NCBI GenBank assembly: GCA_019637075.1
Contig: JAHBWI010000005.1
Span: 1 to 64,000 of the forward strand
Reading direction: 5' to 3'
DNA: 64,000 nucleotides
From: Nitrospiraceae bacterium
GTDB lineage: Bacteria; Nitrospirota; Nitrospiria; Nitrospirales; Nitrospiraceae
Part shown: positions 1,607 through 10,705 of the stretch, one piece after another
Layout: every line of letters starts with the position of its first letter
Numbering within the stretch: position 1 is the first letter of the stretch
Position numbers and translations under genes: made by a program
Notes under the pieces: model-generated
Databases searched by the model: none
What the model saw: only the letters and a program-made list of their open reading frames with translations
What the model was told of the DNA's origin: nothing

Positions 1607-2329
1607 TCAACGTACGGAGGACGATGCATCGACCGCTCGGCTAGCCCATTGCTCAAGGGTCTTCTGCACCGACGCCCCCCACCCGCGATATTCAATGGAT
1701 TCTTTCCCGTCGAATCGGAACTCCACACCAAGCTCGGTCACGTCGCCGACGGGTGCGATATTTCGTACGATGCCCGCCAAGTTACTGATGTGGCCGATGC
1801 CCAGAACCTCAAACTCCATGCGAAGACACATCCCAGGAAAGAAATCATGGGCGGCACGCTGGAGCGAGATACAACAGCCCGCCGCGCTGAGGTCTCGTAA
1901 CAACCCGCCGATCCGGTCCGGCGTCTCGGAGCGGGGTGTCGGAAGTCCGTCACTCACCCGCGTCAAAACCAACGGCTCGTTCGTGGCAATTCGGCAATGT
2001 TTGCGAAGGGCTACTTCTTCCCGGTTGGTCGGATAGGTCAGGAGAAGAAAGGGAAACGGGACGTGGTGGGTTGAGAGGACCTCGCTCCGGAACCCCACCA
2101 TGCGGCCCTGGTACATATATCTAATGACGCACTGAGATCCGGCTGCGCAAGGCACCGGCTGCCCCAATTGAAAGGGCCACTCGCACATCAACCATGCCCC
2201 TTCCCTCCATCCGAGCAACGATGACCCGTACTGACTGCGGTTATCGGCCCCTGAAAGGTGCATTTGGAGGGGTAGGCCTACCGCCAAAAACGATCCAGCA
2301 GACTGACAGGGAAGACTTGGTTCGCCCAT
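1607..2329 (-). CDS. YcgR-like c-di-GMP receptor (YcgR-type N-domain + PilZ)
   Basis: The protein is 240 residues. Residues about 45-105 resemble the YcgR/PilZN domain (RYMYQGRMVGFRSEVL, FPFLLLTYP), and 106-235 form a PilZ domain with both c-di-GMP-binding motifs intact: R109-x3-R113 (RKHCR) and D146-x-S-x2-G151 (DLSAAG). In enteric bacteria YcgR binds c-di-GMP and slows the flagellar motor; a similar brake role here is inference, supported by the sigma-28-like promoter and by the flagellar locus starting 4 kb away. ATG 2329 has AGAGGA six bases upstream. It is transcribed divergently from the HD-GYP/kinase operon. Confidence 0.85.
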   Translation of the reverse strand: MGEPSLPCQSAGSFLAVGLPLQMHLSGADNRSQYGSSLLGWREGAWLMCEWPFQLGQPVPCAAGSQCVIRYMYQGRMVGFRSEVLSTHHVPFPFLLLTYPTNREEVALRKHCRIATNEPLVLTRVSDGLPTPRSETPDRIGGLLRDLSAAGCCISLQRAAHDFFPGMCLRMEFEVLGIGHISNLAGIVRNIAPVGDVTELGVEFRFDGKESIEYRGWGASVQKTLEQWASRAVDASSSVR

Positions 2330-2377
2330 AACGTCCTCTGTTGGCCAAGAATGTGCAGCAACAGGCTCTTATGAGTC

Positions 2378-2405
2378 GTATCGGCATCTATCTGGAAAAC
2401 CTTAA
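2378..2405 (-). promoter_or_regulatory. Sigma-28 (FliA)-like promoter of the PilZ gene
   Basis: On the minus strand TTAAGGTT, 12 bases, then GCCGATAC. The bacterial flagellar sigma consensus is TAAAGTTT-N11-GCCGATAA; here the gap is 12, as in the other four sites of this window. The expected start is about 40 bases before the ATG at 2329. Confidence 0.7.
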
Positions 2406-2431
2406 GCTCCCCTGTAGGCAACAGACCGGAT

Positions 2432-2459
2432 TTAAGCGGATTCCACCAACAACCGATAT
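2432..2459 (+). promoter_or_regulatory. Sigma-28 (FliA)-like promoter of the HD-GYP/hybrid kinase operon
   Basis: On the plus strand TTAAGCGG, 12 bases, then ACCGATAT. It lies back to back with the PilZ-gene promoter, 26 bases away, so one short intergenic region drives two c-di-GMP genes in opposite directions. The -10 box ends 65 bases before the ATG at 2525. Confidence 0.6.
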
Positions 2460-2524
2460 CGTTGAGCGACGCGTATCACCTGCTGTCGACGACTGCTACT
2501 CACCCTGACGCCTGTATAGGAGCC

Positions 2525-3763
2525 ATGGCCAGCACAAAGCGAATCACCATCGACCAGCTCAAGCCCGGCATGTTCGTCGTGGCGATGGATCAGCCGTGGT
2601 ACCGAACCCCGTTTCTTTTTCACAAACGCCTGATCGCCGGCCCCGACGACATCGACCAAATGCGTCGGCACGGCATCCATGAAATCACCATCGACATCGA
2701 AAAGGGACTCGACCTCGACGCCACGCCTGTGGCGGTAGTCACCCCTTCCTCACCGGCGCCCGTCGCCCCGGCCGAGCAACCACCGCAGACGCATCAAGCT
2801 TCACCGACAGCCATGGAAGCCGCCCAAGTTTCGTATCGTGAGGCCACGGCGGCCATGGAACGCATTTTCGCTGAGCTCGAGGCAGGGCATGCGCCGAATA
2901 TTGAGGCCGTCAAATCCGTCGTGGCGAAGGTCATGGATCAGATCCTCCTCCACCAGGAATCCATGCTGGCTCAGTTTTGCGTGCAGAAGATGCGCCGCTT
3001 CGATCGCACGTTGGCCAGTCACGGCTTGGACGTGTGCGTGCTGTCCTTGATCGTCGCGCACGAATATGGGCTCAAAGAGACGGAGCAAGACCAACTCGGC
3101 ATGGGCGCCATGCTGCATGACGTCGGATACGTGCGCCTGCCGCGCAATCTCTACCGGAAAGCCGGGTTGCTCAGCCCACAAGAGAACTCCTTGATGAAGC
3201 AACATCCGCAACTGTCCATCGCCGTCATGGCCGAAGCCGGCGATGTACCGGACCTCACGCGCCAAATCATTTCCCAACACCACGAACATGAGAACGGCAG
3301 CGGCTATCCGAACAAGCTCAACGGCGCAGCCGTTTCGCCGCTGGCTCAAATCGTGGGATTGGTCGATACGTACGACGGAATGGTGAGCTTTCGAAACGGC
3401 CGCCCGCCGCTCCTGCCCCACGATGCGATTCGACAGCTGTTCGTCCTCGGCGAGAAAGGCCGATTCGACAAAGCCCTGATCGAAGTGGCCATTAAGGCCT
3501 TAGGCGTCTATCCGATCGGCAGCCTGATCAAATTAAACACGGGCGAGTCCGCCGTCGTGGTGGGCCTCAACCATGAACACCGGCTCAAGCCGCGCATCCG
3601 GATCATCACGGACCAGAAGGGGCAGGCATGCATCGAGCCTATCGACGTGGACCTCTCGACGCAGAACGGCCAGCAACCGCAACGGACCATCCTGCGCGCG
3701 CTCGACCCCAAACAAGAGCACGTGAACGTCCCGGCCTACCTTGAAGCGGCAGCGGGACACTGA
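2525..3763 (+). CDS. HD-GYP domain protein (probable c-di-GMP phosphodiesterase family)
   Basis: The protein is 412 residues from ATG 2525 (TAGGAG just upstream); the frame is open from 2462 but the family N-terminus MASTKRITIDQLKPGMFV begins here. Residues 1-75 match DUF3391, a common leader of HD-GYP proteins; a Pro/Ala-rich linker follows; about 120-330 is the HD-GYP domain with MLHDVGY and HHEHENGSGYP. The HD and GYP signatures are present, but the lysine usual after HD-x-G is tyrosine, so activity is not certain. Family members hydrolyse c-di-GMP. The kinase gene follows after 6 bases. Confidence 0.85.
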   Translation: MASTKRITIDQLKPGMFVVAMDQPWYRTPFLFHKRLIAGPDDIDQMRRHGIHEITIDIEKGLDLDATPVAVVTPSSPAPVAPAEQPPQTHQASPTAMEAAQVSYREATAAMERIFAELEAGHAPNIEAVKSVVAKVMDQILLHQESMLAQFCVQKMRRFDRTLASHGLDVCVLSLIVAHEYGLKETEQDQLGMGAMLHDVGYVRLPRNLYRKAGLLSPQENSLMKQHPQLSIAVMAEAGDVPDLTRQIISQHHEHENGSGYPNKLNGAAVSPLAQIVGLVDTYDGMVSFRNGRPPLLPHDAIRQLFVLGEKGRFDKALIEVAIKALGVYPIGSLIKLNTGESAVVVGLNHEHRLKPRIRIITDQKGQACIEPIDVDLSTQNGQQPQRTILRALDPKQEHVNVPAYLEAAAGH

Positions 3764-3769
3764 ACCACC

Positions 3770-6598
3770 GTGAAACATTCAGCATCGCCTCGACGTCGCA
3801 AGAACCCGAATCAAGGGCACAGCCCGTTTGATTCGGACTCCATGTCCGGATTGTTGTGGAATGCACTCCCTCTGGGCATCTGCCTGCTGGGAGCAGACCA
3901 ACGGATCCTCTTTGCCAACCGGGAAGCCGCCAGACTGTTGGCAACGCCGGCCAAAGCCTGCCTCGGTAAAACCCTCGCCGACCTTCTCGGCCTCGAGCTC
4001 GTGCCCACGTCGTCGCTTCGATCAGCGGGAATCTGGCGAATCCCCGACCCGCCCCACGCCGATGCCCAACACCCGGCCGCGGCCTCACCGGCCTCCGCCA
4101 TAGAATGGATGCACCTGCGCTTGTCCGGAGTGCCTGAGGTGTCCGGACTCCTCACCCTGCGGGATGTCTCGCGAGAAGTGGCGCTCGAACAGGACCGCAA
4201 TCGGCTGACTTCCGTCGCCGAGGAAAGTCCCTATCCCATCGTCGAACTCGACACCGACTGCACCATGCTCTACGTAAACCCTGCGATGGTCGAGGTGCTC
4301 TGTCGCTTCGGGTACGACGAACACGGCACACCGGACATCCTCCCGGACAACCTTTCTGAATTGGTGCCGGCATGCCTCCGCGAGGGCCGCCCCATTTCCT
4401 CCCAAGTCGTCGTACGCGGGAGCGCCTGCTATGCCTGGACCCTTTGCCCCGTGCCGACGCATCAGCTGGTCAGGGCCTATGCCATCGACCTCAGCGAAGT
4501 TCACGCCACCCACAAGGCCTTGAACGACACGGCCGATCACCTGCGAGAGAGCAACCGTCAACTCGACCAAGCGCTGCAACAGGCTCAGGCAGCGACCCGG
4601 GTAAAGTCCACCTTCCTGGCCACGGTCAGTCACGAACTGCGCACACCGATGAACGGTGTGATCGGCATGACCAGTCTGCTGCTGGATACACCTCTGTCGG
4701 AAGAACAGCGTTCGTTCGTTCAAACGATCCAACAGTGCGGGGAGACGCAGCTGACTCTGATCAACGATGTGTTGGAATGCAGCAAGATCGAGGCAGGCAA
4801 ACTCGAGTTGGAGCATCTCGACTTTCAACTTCGAACCACGGTGGAAGACGTCCTCTCCCAATTTGCCGAACGGGCCCAGGCCAAGGGGCTCGAAATCACC
4901 GGTCTGGTGCATGCCGCGGTGCCGAATGCGCTCCGGGGCGATCCCGCCCGGCTTCGACAGGTGCTGACCAACTTCATGGGCAACGCCATCAAATTCACGG
5001 AGCGAGGCGAGGTCACGCTCCAGGCCTTCTTGGAATCTGAGACCCCCGACGGCGTGGTCATCCGATTTGAAGTGACCGACACCGGAATCGGCATCAACGA
5101 GGAGAATCAGACCAGGCTCTTCCAGCCCTTCACGCAGGCCGATAGTTCGACGACGCGCAAATACGGCGGCACCGGTCTCGGACTTGCGATCTCAAAGCAG
5201 CTGATCGAGCTGATGGGCGGTCAGGTCGGCCTGAAGAGCCGGGTCGGACATGGCACCACGTTTTGGTGCACGGCCAAATTCACCAAGCAACCGGTCTGCC
5301 AGCCGGCGATCATCCCCAACGCCGAACTGAGCGCTCGCCGAGTGCTGATCGTCGACGACAACGAATCCAACCGAACGATTCTCCATCATCTGGTGTCCGG
5401 TTGGGGTATGAAAGACGACCAGGCCCAGAACGCCGAACAGGCCGTGACGATGGTGCGCGCCGCGGCTGCAGCAGGTACGCCCTACGACGTCGCCGTGTTG
5501 GATATGTTGATGCCGGGGAAAGACGGCCTGCAACTGGCACGGGAGCTGAAAGCCCAGCCTGAATCCGCCGGGCTCCGGCTGGTCGTCCTGACGTCGCTCA
5601 TTCAGCCGGGCCATGCCGAACAGGCCCGGCGTGCCGGCTTCGATGCCTACCTGACGAAACCGGTTCGGCACGACACGCTGCAGAATTGCCTTCGAGCCGT
5701 GTTCGGGCTGCAGGCCCCGGCTCCGCCCCCGTCAAAGACCACAGGCCCTCTCCCATCGACGGTGCCGCCCCTCATCACGCGGCATACTCTGGCGGAACAA
5801 GTGTCTCGGCCTCGCATCCTCGTCGCCGAAGACAATCTGGTCAATCAAAAATTGGCCGTCCGCATGTTGGAGCGGTTGGGATACCAGGCTGATATCGTCG
5901 GAAACGGTGAGGAAGCCTTGGGAGCATTGGAACGAGCGCAGTACAGCGCCATCGTGATGGATTGCCAGATGCCGGTCATGGACGGGTACGAGGCCGCGCG
6001 CCGCATTCGTGAGCAGGAGCTGCGATCGGACCAGCAGGCTCAACGCCCGCACATCCCAATCATCGCCTTAACGGCCAACGCCATGCAGGGTGATCGCGAG
6101 CGCTGCAAAGCCGCCGGGATGGATGACTACCTGTCGAAACCCGTCAAAACCGATGACCTTGGGCATATCCTCGCGCGTTGGGTGGTATTGAGCCCCGGCA
6201 CCCCGGCTAAGCCAGGAGCTGCCGCCAGAGCGGTGAAGAGCAGTTACTCGGCGGTCTTCGATGCCACGACCATGTTGGCCAACCTCGGCGGTGACACCGA
6301 CCTGTTCGAGCAACTCCTTCGTCTTTTCCTCGATCGCCAGTCGATGATGATGGCCGAGATCCGGACCGCAGTGGAACGCGCGGATGCTTCCCTATTGGAA
6401 CGCGCCGCCCACACCATGAAGGGCACTGCAGCCAACCTCTGCGCGCCCGATGTCGTGCTGGTCGCCAGTCAATTGGAGGCGATCGGCCGACTAGGCTCGC
6501 TCACCGATGCCGCCGGACTGTACAGTCAACTCGACCGGCGCGTGCGACAGCTCGTCGACGTGATTCACCGCCACATGGCCATGCCGAAGACGGCCTAG
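3770..6598 (+). CDS. Soluble hybrid sensor kinase: PAS-PAS-HisKA-HATPase-REC-REC-HPt
   Basis: The protein is 942 residues from GTG 3770. Two PAS-like regions (about 25-135 and 140-245) and a coiled coil precede HisKA with H288 ([10 protein letters not shown]), the HATPase domain (NAIKFT, DTGIGI, GTGLGL), receiver 1 with D578 (VLDMLMP), receiver 2 with D731 (VMDCQMP) and a C-terminal HPt with H881 ([12 protein letters not shown]). This is a full BarA-like phosphorelay in one chain. No membrane segment is visible, so it should sense a cytoplasmic cue. It is translationally close to the HD-GYP gene, under a flagellar-type promoter. No free response regulator sits next to it; its output is unknown. 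Confidence 0.9.
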
Positions 6599-7148: not shown

Positions 7149-7394
7149 CTATCTTCCCCGCCGGCCGTTTCGCGTGCCGAGCTGGCGGAACGCATCGAGC
7201 GGAATGGCGCCGGTCTCAGCAGCCACCTTATTCTCTTCCTGGATACGAGCGTGGACTTCATCTCGATGCACTTCCACGTTGGAGGGCGCCTCGATGCCGA
7301 GACGGACCTGACCTCCCTTGATGCCAAGGACCACGATCCGAACGTTGGGGCCTATCGTGACGCCTTCTCCTCGACGTCTGGTCAACACAAGCAT
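7149..7394 (-). CDS. csrA: Carbon storage/translational regulator CsrA
   Basis: The protein is 81 residues. The N-terminus MLVLTRRRGEGVTIG and the following VLGIKGGQVRLGIEAP are canonical for CsrA, including the RNA-binding N-terminal strand and the core EVHRDEV. CsrA dimers bind GGA motifs in mRNA leaders; in the CsrA-FliW branch the main target is flagellin mRNA. It is longer than E. coli CsrA (61 residues) by a C-terminal extension, as is usual for FliW-regulated homologues. A sigma-28-like promoter of its own lies upstream, so it need not depend only on read-through from flgL. Confidence 0.97.
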   Translation of the reverse strand: MLVLTRRRGEGVTIGPNVRIVVLGIKGGQVRLGIEAPSNVEVHRDEVHARIQEENKVAAETGAIPLDAFRQLGTRNGRRGR

Positions 7395-7432
7395 GGTAGC
7401 CTTCCTTGGCGAGTGGACAGATCCTTGAATGA

Positions 7433-7460
7433 GTATCGGTCGCCAAGGAACACGACTTGA
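7433..7460 (-). promoter_or_regulatory. Sigma-28 (FliA)-like promoter of csrA-fliW
   Basis: On the minus strand TCAAGTCG, 12 bases, ACCGATAC, located in the short gap between the flgL stop and csrA. Start expected about 30 bases before the csrA ATG. Same spacing and box as the flgM site. Confidence 0.6.
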
Positions 7461-10677: not shown

Positions 10678-10705
10678 TTATCGGTGAAACCTTTCGGGAA
10701 CTTTA
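10678..10705 (-). promoter_or_regulatory. Sigma-28 (FliA)-like promoter of flgM-flgN-flgK-flgL
   Basis: On the minus strand TAAAGTTC, 12 bases, ACCGATAA, the best match in the window to the flagellar sigma consensus. It sits in the 106-base gap between flgJ and flgM and marks the switch from hook-basal-body genes to late genes. Confidence 0.8.

Follow-up and report, generated by a model that had tools for sequence, protein, structure and literature searches.

A conserved pair of putative divergent sigma-28-type promoters between genes for a YcgR-type c-di-GMP receptor and an HD-GYP protein with a replaced catalytic lysine

In Escherichia coli, the genes for the c-di-GMP receptor (ycgR) and for a c-di-GMP phosphodiesterase (yhjH/pdeH) are both described as FliA-controlled (PMC5300878). 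In Pseudomonas putida, the YcgR-like PilZ gene flgZ of the flgM-flgN-flgZ cluster, lying beside flgM, is likewise reported to be under FliA (PMC6093933). Regarding HD-GYP proteins, DvhD of Desulfovibrio vulgaris is described as having an HD-GYP domain that binds c-di-GMP without hydrolysing it (PMC13090378), and VC2497 of Vibrio cholerae, a DUF3391 + HD-GYP protein, is reported as inactive in all assays used (PMC4212101). Among the matches listed by a full-text search, seen as titles and openings of abstracts, no account of the arrangement described below or of a Nitrospira FliA regulon was found; in the same kind of search, Nitrospira, FliA and flgM occurred together in PMC3162934 only.

The gap between the PilZ and HD-GYP genes

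The locus lies in the window, i.e., the whole stretch of 64 kb that was analysed, where the gap 2330-2524 is the interval between the start codons of two divergent genes, one coding for a PilZ protein and the other for an HD-GYP protein, here termed H1. The features of the locus and of its flagellar neighbourhood are the following.

1607..2329, minus strand: YcgR-type c-di-GMP receptor, PilZNR + PilZ (PF12945, E 5.1e-17; PF07238, E 7.8e-6), motifs RKHCR and DLSAAG
2355..2377, minus strand: putative beginning of the PilZ leader, corresponding to the sequence kept directly after the -10 in many relatives
2378..2405, minus strand: putative sigma-28-type promoter of the PilZ (YcgR-type) gene, -35 TTAAG at 2405-2401, N15, -10 GCCGATAC at 2385-2378
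2432..2459, plus strand: putative sigma-28-type promoter of the HD-GYP/hybrid-kinase operon, -35 TTAAG at 2432-2436, N15, -10 ACCGATAT at 2452-2459
2525..3763, plus strand: H1, DUF3391 + HD-GYP (PF11871, PF13487), His/Asp ligands retained, Tyr in place of PmGH K225
3770..6598, plus strand: hybrid histidine kinase with PAS, HisKA, HATPase, receiver and Hpt domains, encoded directly behind H1
7433..7460, minus strand: sigma-28-type promoter of csrA-fliW, training site, 24.1 bits
10306..10614, minus strand: flgM, anti-sigma-28 factor (PF04316, E 1.5e-16)
10678..10705, minus strand: sigma-28-type promoter of flgM, training site, 25.1 bits
16990..17748, minus strand: fliA, sigma-28 factor (TIGR02479, 253.8 bits, cut-off 189.6)

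Both domains of the 240-residue PilZ protein scored above the Pfam cut-offs, and the YcgR-like protein proposed by the first-pass annotation is indeed a YcgR-type receptor carrying both c-di-GMP-binding motifs. RxxxR and (D/N)xSxxG were both found in the window's copy and in 39/39 relatives counted (40 loci were given, and L047 has a partial gene, whole in L057), and a phmmer comparison of the protein with solved structures gave no meaningful match. On the other side of the gap, the HD-GYP protein plus hybrid kinase proposed in the same annotation was also found, the gene of H1 (412 residues) being followed by that of a 942-residue hybrid kinase; a kinase match is next after H1 in 10/10 of the loci L039-L048.

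Both sites of the gap have the sigma-28 (FliA) form of the family flgM promoters (-35 TnAAG, about 15 nt, -10 (G/A)CCGATA), with the HD-GYP side weaker. They are correctly oriented, 48 nt from the PilZ ATG and 65 nt from the HD-GYP ATG, respectively, and their -35 elements are 26 nt apart. Two divergent sigma-28-type promoters are confirmed in the gap at the level of sequence, and both would be read by FliA.

A chance origin of both motifs, or their use by an unrelated regulator, is very improbable, even if one count speaks for it: genome-wide, the exact pattern TAARN15RCCGATA was matched 8 times versus 6 times for the reversed control, that is, with no enrichment. In the 64-kb window, the same pattern with at most one mismatch gave 4 matches versus 0.84 expected, a number reached by 0/100 shuffles; both gap sites are exact, and the other two matches, each with one mismatch, precede csrA-fliW and flgM. 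Against a chance origin also stands the occurrence of the same motif before flgM in 9/9 regions and before csrA in 8/11.

Some of the other exact genome-wide matches directly precede genes that, judged by eye, look like motility or signalling genes. Within the window's own genome, exact sigma-28 patterns were seen in L003, L005 and L006 before a chemoreceptor-like gene and near MotB-like/chemoreceptor-like genes (named by eye).

A scoring matrix was built solely from flgM and csrA promoter sites (n = 17, the window's own two included). With this matrix, the window matches above 20 bits were flgM (25.1), csrA (24.1) and the PilZ-side site, which at 20.4 bits is strong standing alone; no such match appeared in 20 shuffles. 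The HD-GYP-side site, at 11.8 bits, is weak standing alone: it ranks 8th in the window, chance alone being expected to give 2.1 such matches per 64 kb, and its score was reached by 1/100 shuffles of the gap. Among the 108 loci scored (see below), its score is also the lowest on the H1 side, the next lowest being 15.6, and the weight of this site therefore rests on conservation. As a divergent pair with both sites of at least 10 bits within 130 nt, the gap pair is the only one in the window.

Such a low score, lying within the chance expectation for 64 kb, might mean that the HD-GYP-side site has decayed, with only the PilZ-side site working as a sigma-28 promoter here and the operon being read from another promoter. 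We regard this as quite improbable, since the site occupies the H1-side position of the relatives, in the same order, its -35 distance of 26 nt is near the 30-33 nt of genus g18 (with H1-side scores of 15.6-18.4 bits), and the gap 2330-2524 yielded no sigma-70-like site. A decayed site would nevertheless be compatible with the rest of our best explanation.

Downstream of the PilZ/H2 promoter (H2 being a second HD-GYP gene, see below), the sequence after the -10 reads in many relatives roughly TCATCAGAG, a gap, and GTTGnTGTC. No RNA structure was predicted in the PilZ leader by RNAalifold from 55 distinct leaders. The leader element was also considered as a shared regulatory site and rejected: a search of 6 genomes that allowed 3 mismatches found exact copies solely at the PilZ locus, in G034 and G024, the locus copy of G096 had 2 mismatches, and the remaining matches had 2-3. 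Identical copies with 2 mismatches in G103 and G096 lie inside an opposite-strand open frame, and no sigma-28 -10 was found beside them in the adjoining stretch inspected. The pattern did not pick up the PilZ locus itself in G103, G121 and the window's genome. At csrA-fliW (7149-7460, minus strand), CGCCAAGGAAGGC is present in the csrA leader, ahead of the start codon, in 5/8 leaders compared; we take it to resemble the CsrA motif, and it is possibly a CsrA self-binding site.

Conservation of the promoter pair

The family to which the related loci belong is most likely Nitrospiraceae, the named relatives at these loci being three Nitrospira MAGs only. The 115 loci with PilZ that were examined represent 114 distinct places (G130 is present twice). 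Eight further PilZ places lie outside the set, namely those of G133, G134 and G142, one of the copies in G136 (the second), two of the three of G138 and two of G112; G011, covered as L054, has no H1. Seven loci (L095, L100, L127, L137, L145, L166 and L168) were skipped in scoring because of cut genes or contig ends, L145 having no H1 found.

Conservation of the pair in related genomes, suggested by the first-pass annotation as a check on its two sigma-28-like promoters facing apart in one intergenic region, was borne out: both sites were present jointly, on the two strands and in the correct directions, with at least 10 bits in 108/108 scored loci and with at least 12 bits in 103/108. Of the shuffled regions, 0.06% (0.0006) had both strands at 10 bits or more, which speaks against chance matches or an unrelated regulator. 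Among the scored loci, L066 repeats L039, and the regions of L047 and L048 (7951 and 2511 nt) have other genes inside; 105 distinct short regions are left, all of which (105/105) reach 10 bits on both strands, and 100/105 reach 12.

Many of the scored genomes are close kin; identity was compared among divergent representatives (22-34 on the H1 side, 18-28 on the left side). Spacer and flanks showed an identity of 0.28-0.36 versus 0.80-0.91 for the -35/-10 elements, figures that are biased downward for the former, as the representatives were chosen by low identity, and upward for the latter, as the best-scoring site was chosen. In scans of whole regions, each of L039-L046, and likewise L048, had this as its only divergent pair with at least 10 bits per site and a separation of up to 130 nt; two such pairs were found in L047 and none in L049-L056. 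The pair is retained in L048, where a further gene with a weak resemblance to the kinase separates it from H1. The order flgM, flgK, flgL, csrA, fliW, kinase, H1 and divergent PilZ transcript is maintained in L039-L046. As judged from these comparisons, the promoter pair has good support at the level of sequence and is old within the family.

At the genome level, the PilZ gene was found in 118/175 family genomes and FliA above the family cut-off in 128/175. Both were present in 113 of the 175 genomes, FliA only in 15, PilZ only in 5 and neither in 42, counts that are uncorrected for kinship and include some incomplete genomes. The co-occurrence of FliA and PilZ is counted in favour of our best explanation (see below), and the 15 genomes with FliA but without a PilZ match against it.

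Residues of H1 and the removal of c-di-GMP

H1 sequences were aligned to PmGH numbering in 109 rows (one genome twice). D183, H189, H221, D222, H250, H276 and H277 are conserved in 109/109 rows, and the metal ligand D305 in 103/109, the window's H1 included. On the contrary, the K225 position is occupied by Y in 95, F in 12 and E in 2 of the 109 rows and never by Lys, the window's copy having Tyr. At the E185 position S (60), T (46), D (2) and G (1) are found, with Thr in the window's copy, and the GYP motif reads GFP in 86/109 rows, being intact in the window's copy.

In PmGH, D183A and K225A are reported to abolish activity, changes in the GYP motif to reduce it little, and E185A, affecting a ligand of the third metal, to leave some activity (PMC4159591). 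The replacement of E185 in H1 is thus not decisive, since H2 has Tyr at the same position and the E185A mutant of PmGH retains some activity. As for K225, its replacement in all H1 sequences, together with the effect of K225A in PmGH, leads us to predict that ordinary hydrolysis of c-di-GMP is most likely absent in H1. The c-di-GMP removal that the first-pass annotation had attributed to this protein is therefore not supported, the catalytic lysine being replaced in 109/109 H1 sequences. The preserved metal ligands speak for some chemistry.

If H1 were an ordinary active phosphodiesterase and both promoters FliA-dependent, sensing and removal of c-di-GMP would be induced together from the gap. 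This we consider unlikely. The conservation of D183 and of the six His/Asp metal ligands and the intact GYP of the window's copy are in its favour, as is the report that VCA0681 shows activity even though the D308 equivalent is missing, so that one substitution need not kill an HD-GYP enzyme (PMC4212101); against it stand the replacement of K225, a residue needed for activity in PmGH (PMC4159591), in 109/109 H1 and the retention of the same lysine in 42/42 H2.

The substitution is not peculiar to H1, since K225 is absent by alignment in 5/7 other aligned HD-GYP proteins of the window's genome (10 others were matched, of which 7 were aligned and 3 left out, and one non-HD-GYP frame of L177 was excluded). 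The five paralogues, in L171, L172, L173 and L174, have L, E, E, I and M at this position, and the L172 pair adjoin.

The predicted model of H1 (mean pLDDT 74.5, pTM 0.52) has the HD-GYP fold. Foldseek gave DvhD as first match (Z 19.7, rmsd 4.8, 193 residues), tied by VIA-align Z with PmGH (4mcw; Z 19.1, rmsd 2.9, 183 residues) and followed by PA4781 (4r8z; Z 18.0, rmsd 3.0, 188 residues).

In many relatives, the second DUF3391 HD-GYP gene, H2, separates PilZ from the promoters. It was found in 43/115 loci, with H1 in view in 38 of those 43; a 47-residue remnant in L109, a copy in two pieces in L091 and three cut copies are among them. Lys is present at K225 in 42/42 H2 sequences, and GYP in 42/42. 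In genus g18, H2 was found in 0/24 loci. In L105 and L115, the PilZ match starts 302 and 293 nt from the left promoter, and no H2 intervenes. These observations suggest that H2 was lost repeatedly. For the window's genome, a relocated H2 was considered and rejected: the best match to H2 there is H1 itself (31%), followed by paralogues at 26-35%, and therefore no H2 orthologue is present.

Ordinary c-di-GMP removal in the window's genome is more likely performed by another HD-GYP protein. An RpfG-like protein, with receiver and HD-GYP domains (G000:C1:551585-552724, L178), has D183, K225 and the His/Asp metal ligands intact and Ala at E185, and a sigma-28-like site of 18.3 bits is located 54 nt upstream of its gene. 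In the window's genome, this protein could account for c-di-GMP removal at the same stage. The RpfG-like gene was found in 150/175 family genomes (E 1e-60) versus 128/175 with FliA over the cut-off, and is therefore not a flagellar gene everywhere; among the best 30 of the RpfG-like matches, the own one included, a site of at least 11 bits is present 33-91 nt upstream in 15/30 and absent in 15/30.

A flagellar-stage module compared with known systems

Our best explanation, to which we give as a whole a probability of about 0.7, is that of a divergent pair read by FliA, serving a YcgR brake on one side and, on the other, an H1 that is not an ordinary enzyme and has the kinase as partner, with c-di-GMP removal taking place elsewhere. 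The alternatives weighed above overlap with it, and the weights given are not meant to sum to one. According to this explanation, the gap would hold two divergent promoters for the flagellar sigma factor FliA; with the export of FlgM at hook completion, FliA would be freed and both transcripts produced together, and both genes are probably switched on as flagella near completion. The leftward transcript would give the YcgR-type PilZ protein, whose c-di-GMP-bound form should brake the motor, and the rightward one H1 (DUF3391/HD-GYP) with the multi-domain hybrid kinase. H1 would bind the nucleotide, or use it differently, and act with the neighbouring kinase; in many relatives H2, lysine intact, has its place between the left promoter and PilZ.

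The most likely reading of the locus is a c-di-GMP module of the flagellar stage that varies the E. coli ycgR/yhjH logic. As a tentative extension, for which we would not take an even bet, H1 might be a flagellar-stage c-di-GMP sensor derived from an HD-GYP enzyme, with the metal site retained, an aromatic residue in place of the lysine in nearly all members and the nucleotide bound or handled in another way, relaying its state to the adjoining hybrid kinase, and the shared gap with two FliA promoters might keep sensor and YcgR brake in step across Nitrospiraceae. In enterics, FliA is already known to control both a brake and an enzyme of c-di-GMP signalling; that this logic recurs in a distant phylum, with another class of enzyme and a promoter pair maintained over a long time, suggests more than one origin. 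H1 and H2 also offer a natural test of the role of the HD-GYP lysine, one lineage being always without it and the other always with it, in the sequences examined, and the two lying side by side around a single promoter region. For Nitrospira, major nitrite oxidisers living in flocs and biofilms, a switch between swimming and settling matters.

In comparison with the present locus, flgZ of P. putida is described as co-transcribed with flgM and flgN and as also sigma-54-dependent, and the portion of the report available mentions no HD-GYP neighbour (PMC6093933). DvhD, the first structural match to H1, resembles it in that an HD-GYP domain would serve as c-di-GMP receptor, but is described as having a periplasmic dCache domain and as being without the HD and HH metal ligands, whereas H1 has these ligands and DUF3391 (PMC13090378). 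VC2497 shares with H1 the DUF3391 + HD-GYP organisation and one non-conserved key residue; unlike the case of H1, no flagellar promoter is mentioned for it in the available portion of its report (PMC4212101).

The likeness to E. coli ycgR/yhjH consists in a YcgR receptor and a c-di-GMP-type enzyme paired with FliA-type promoters. The E. coli enzyme YhjH is of the EAL type, and ycgR and yhjH are located apart; here, instead, both promoters lie in one gap, the partner is an HD-GYP protein whose lysine is replaced, and its gene is followed by that of a hybrid kinase. The regulatory idea is already known; new are the way in which the genes are arranged, the class of the enzyme and the loss of its catalytic lysine throughout the lineage.
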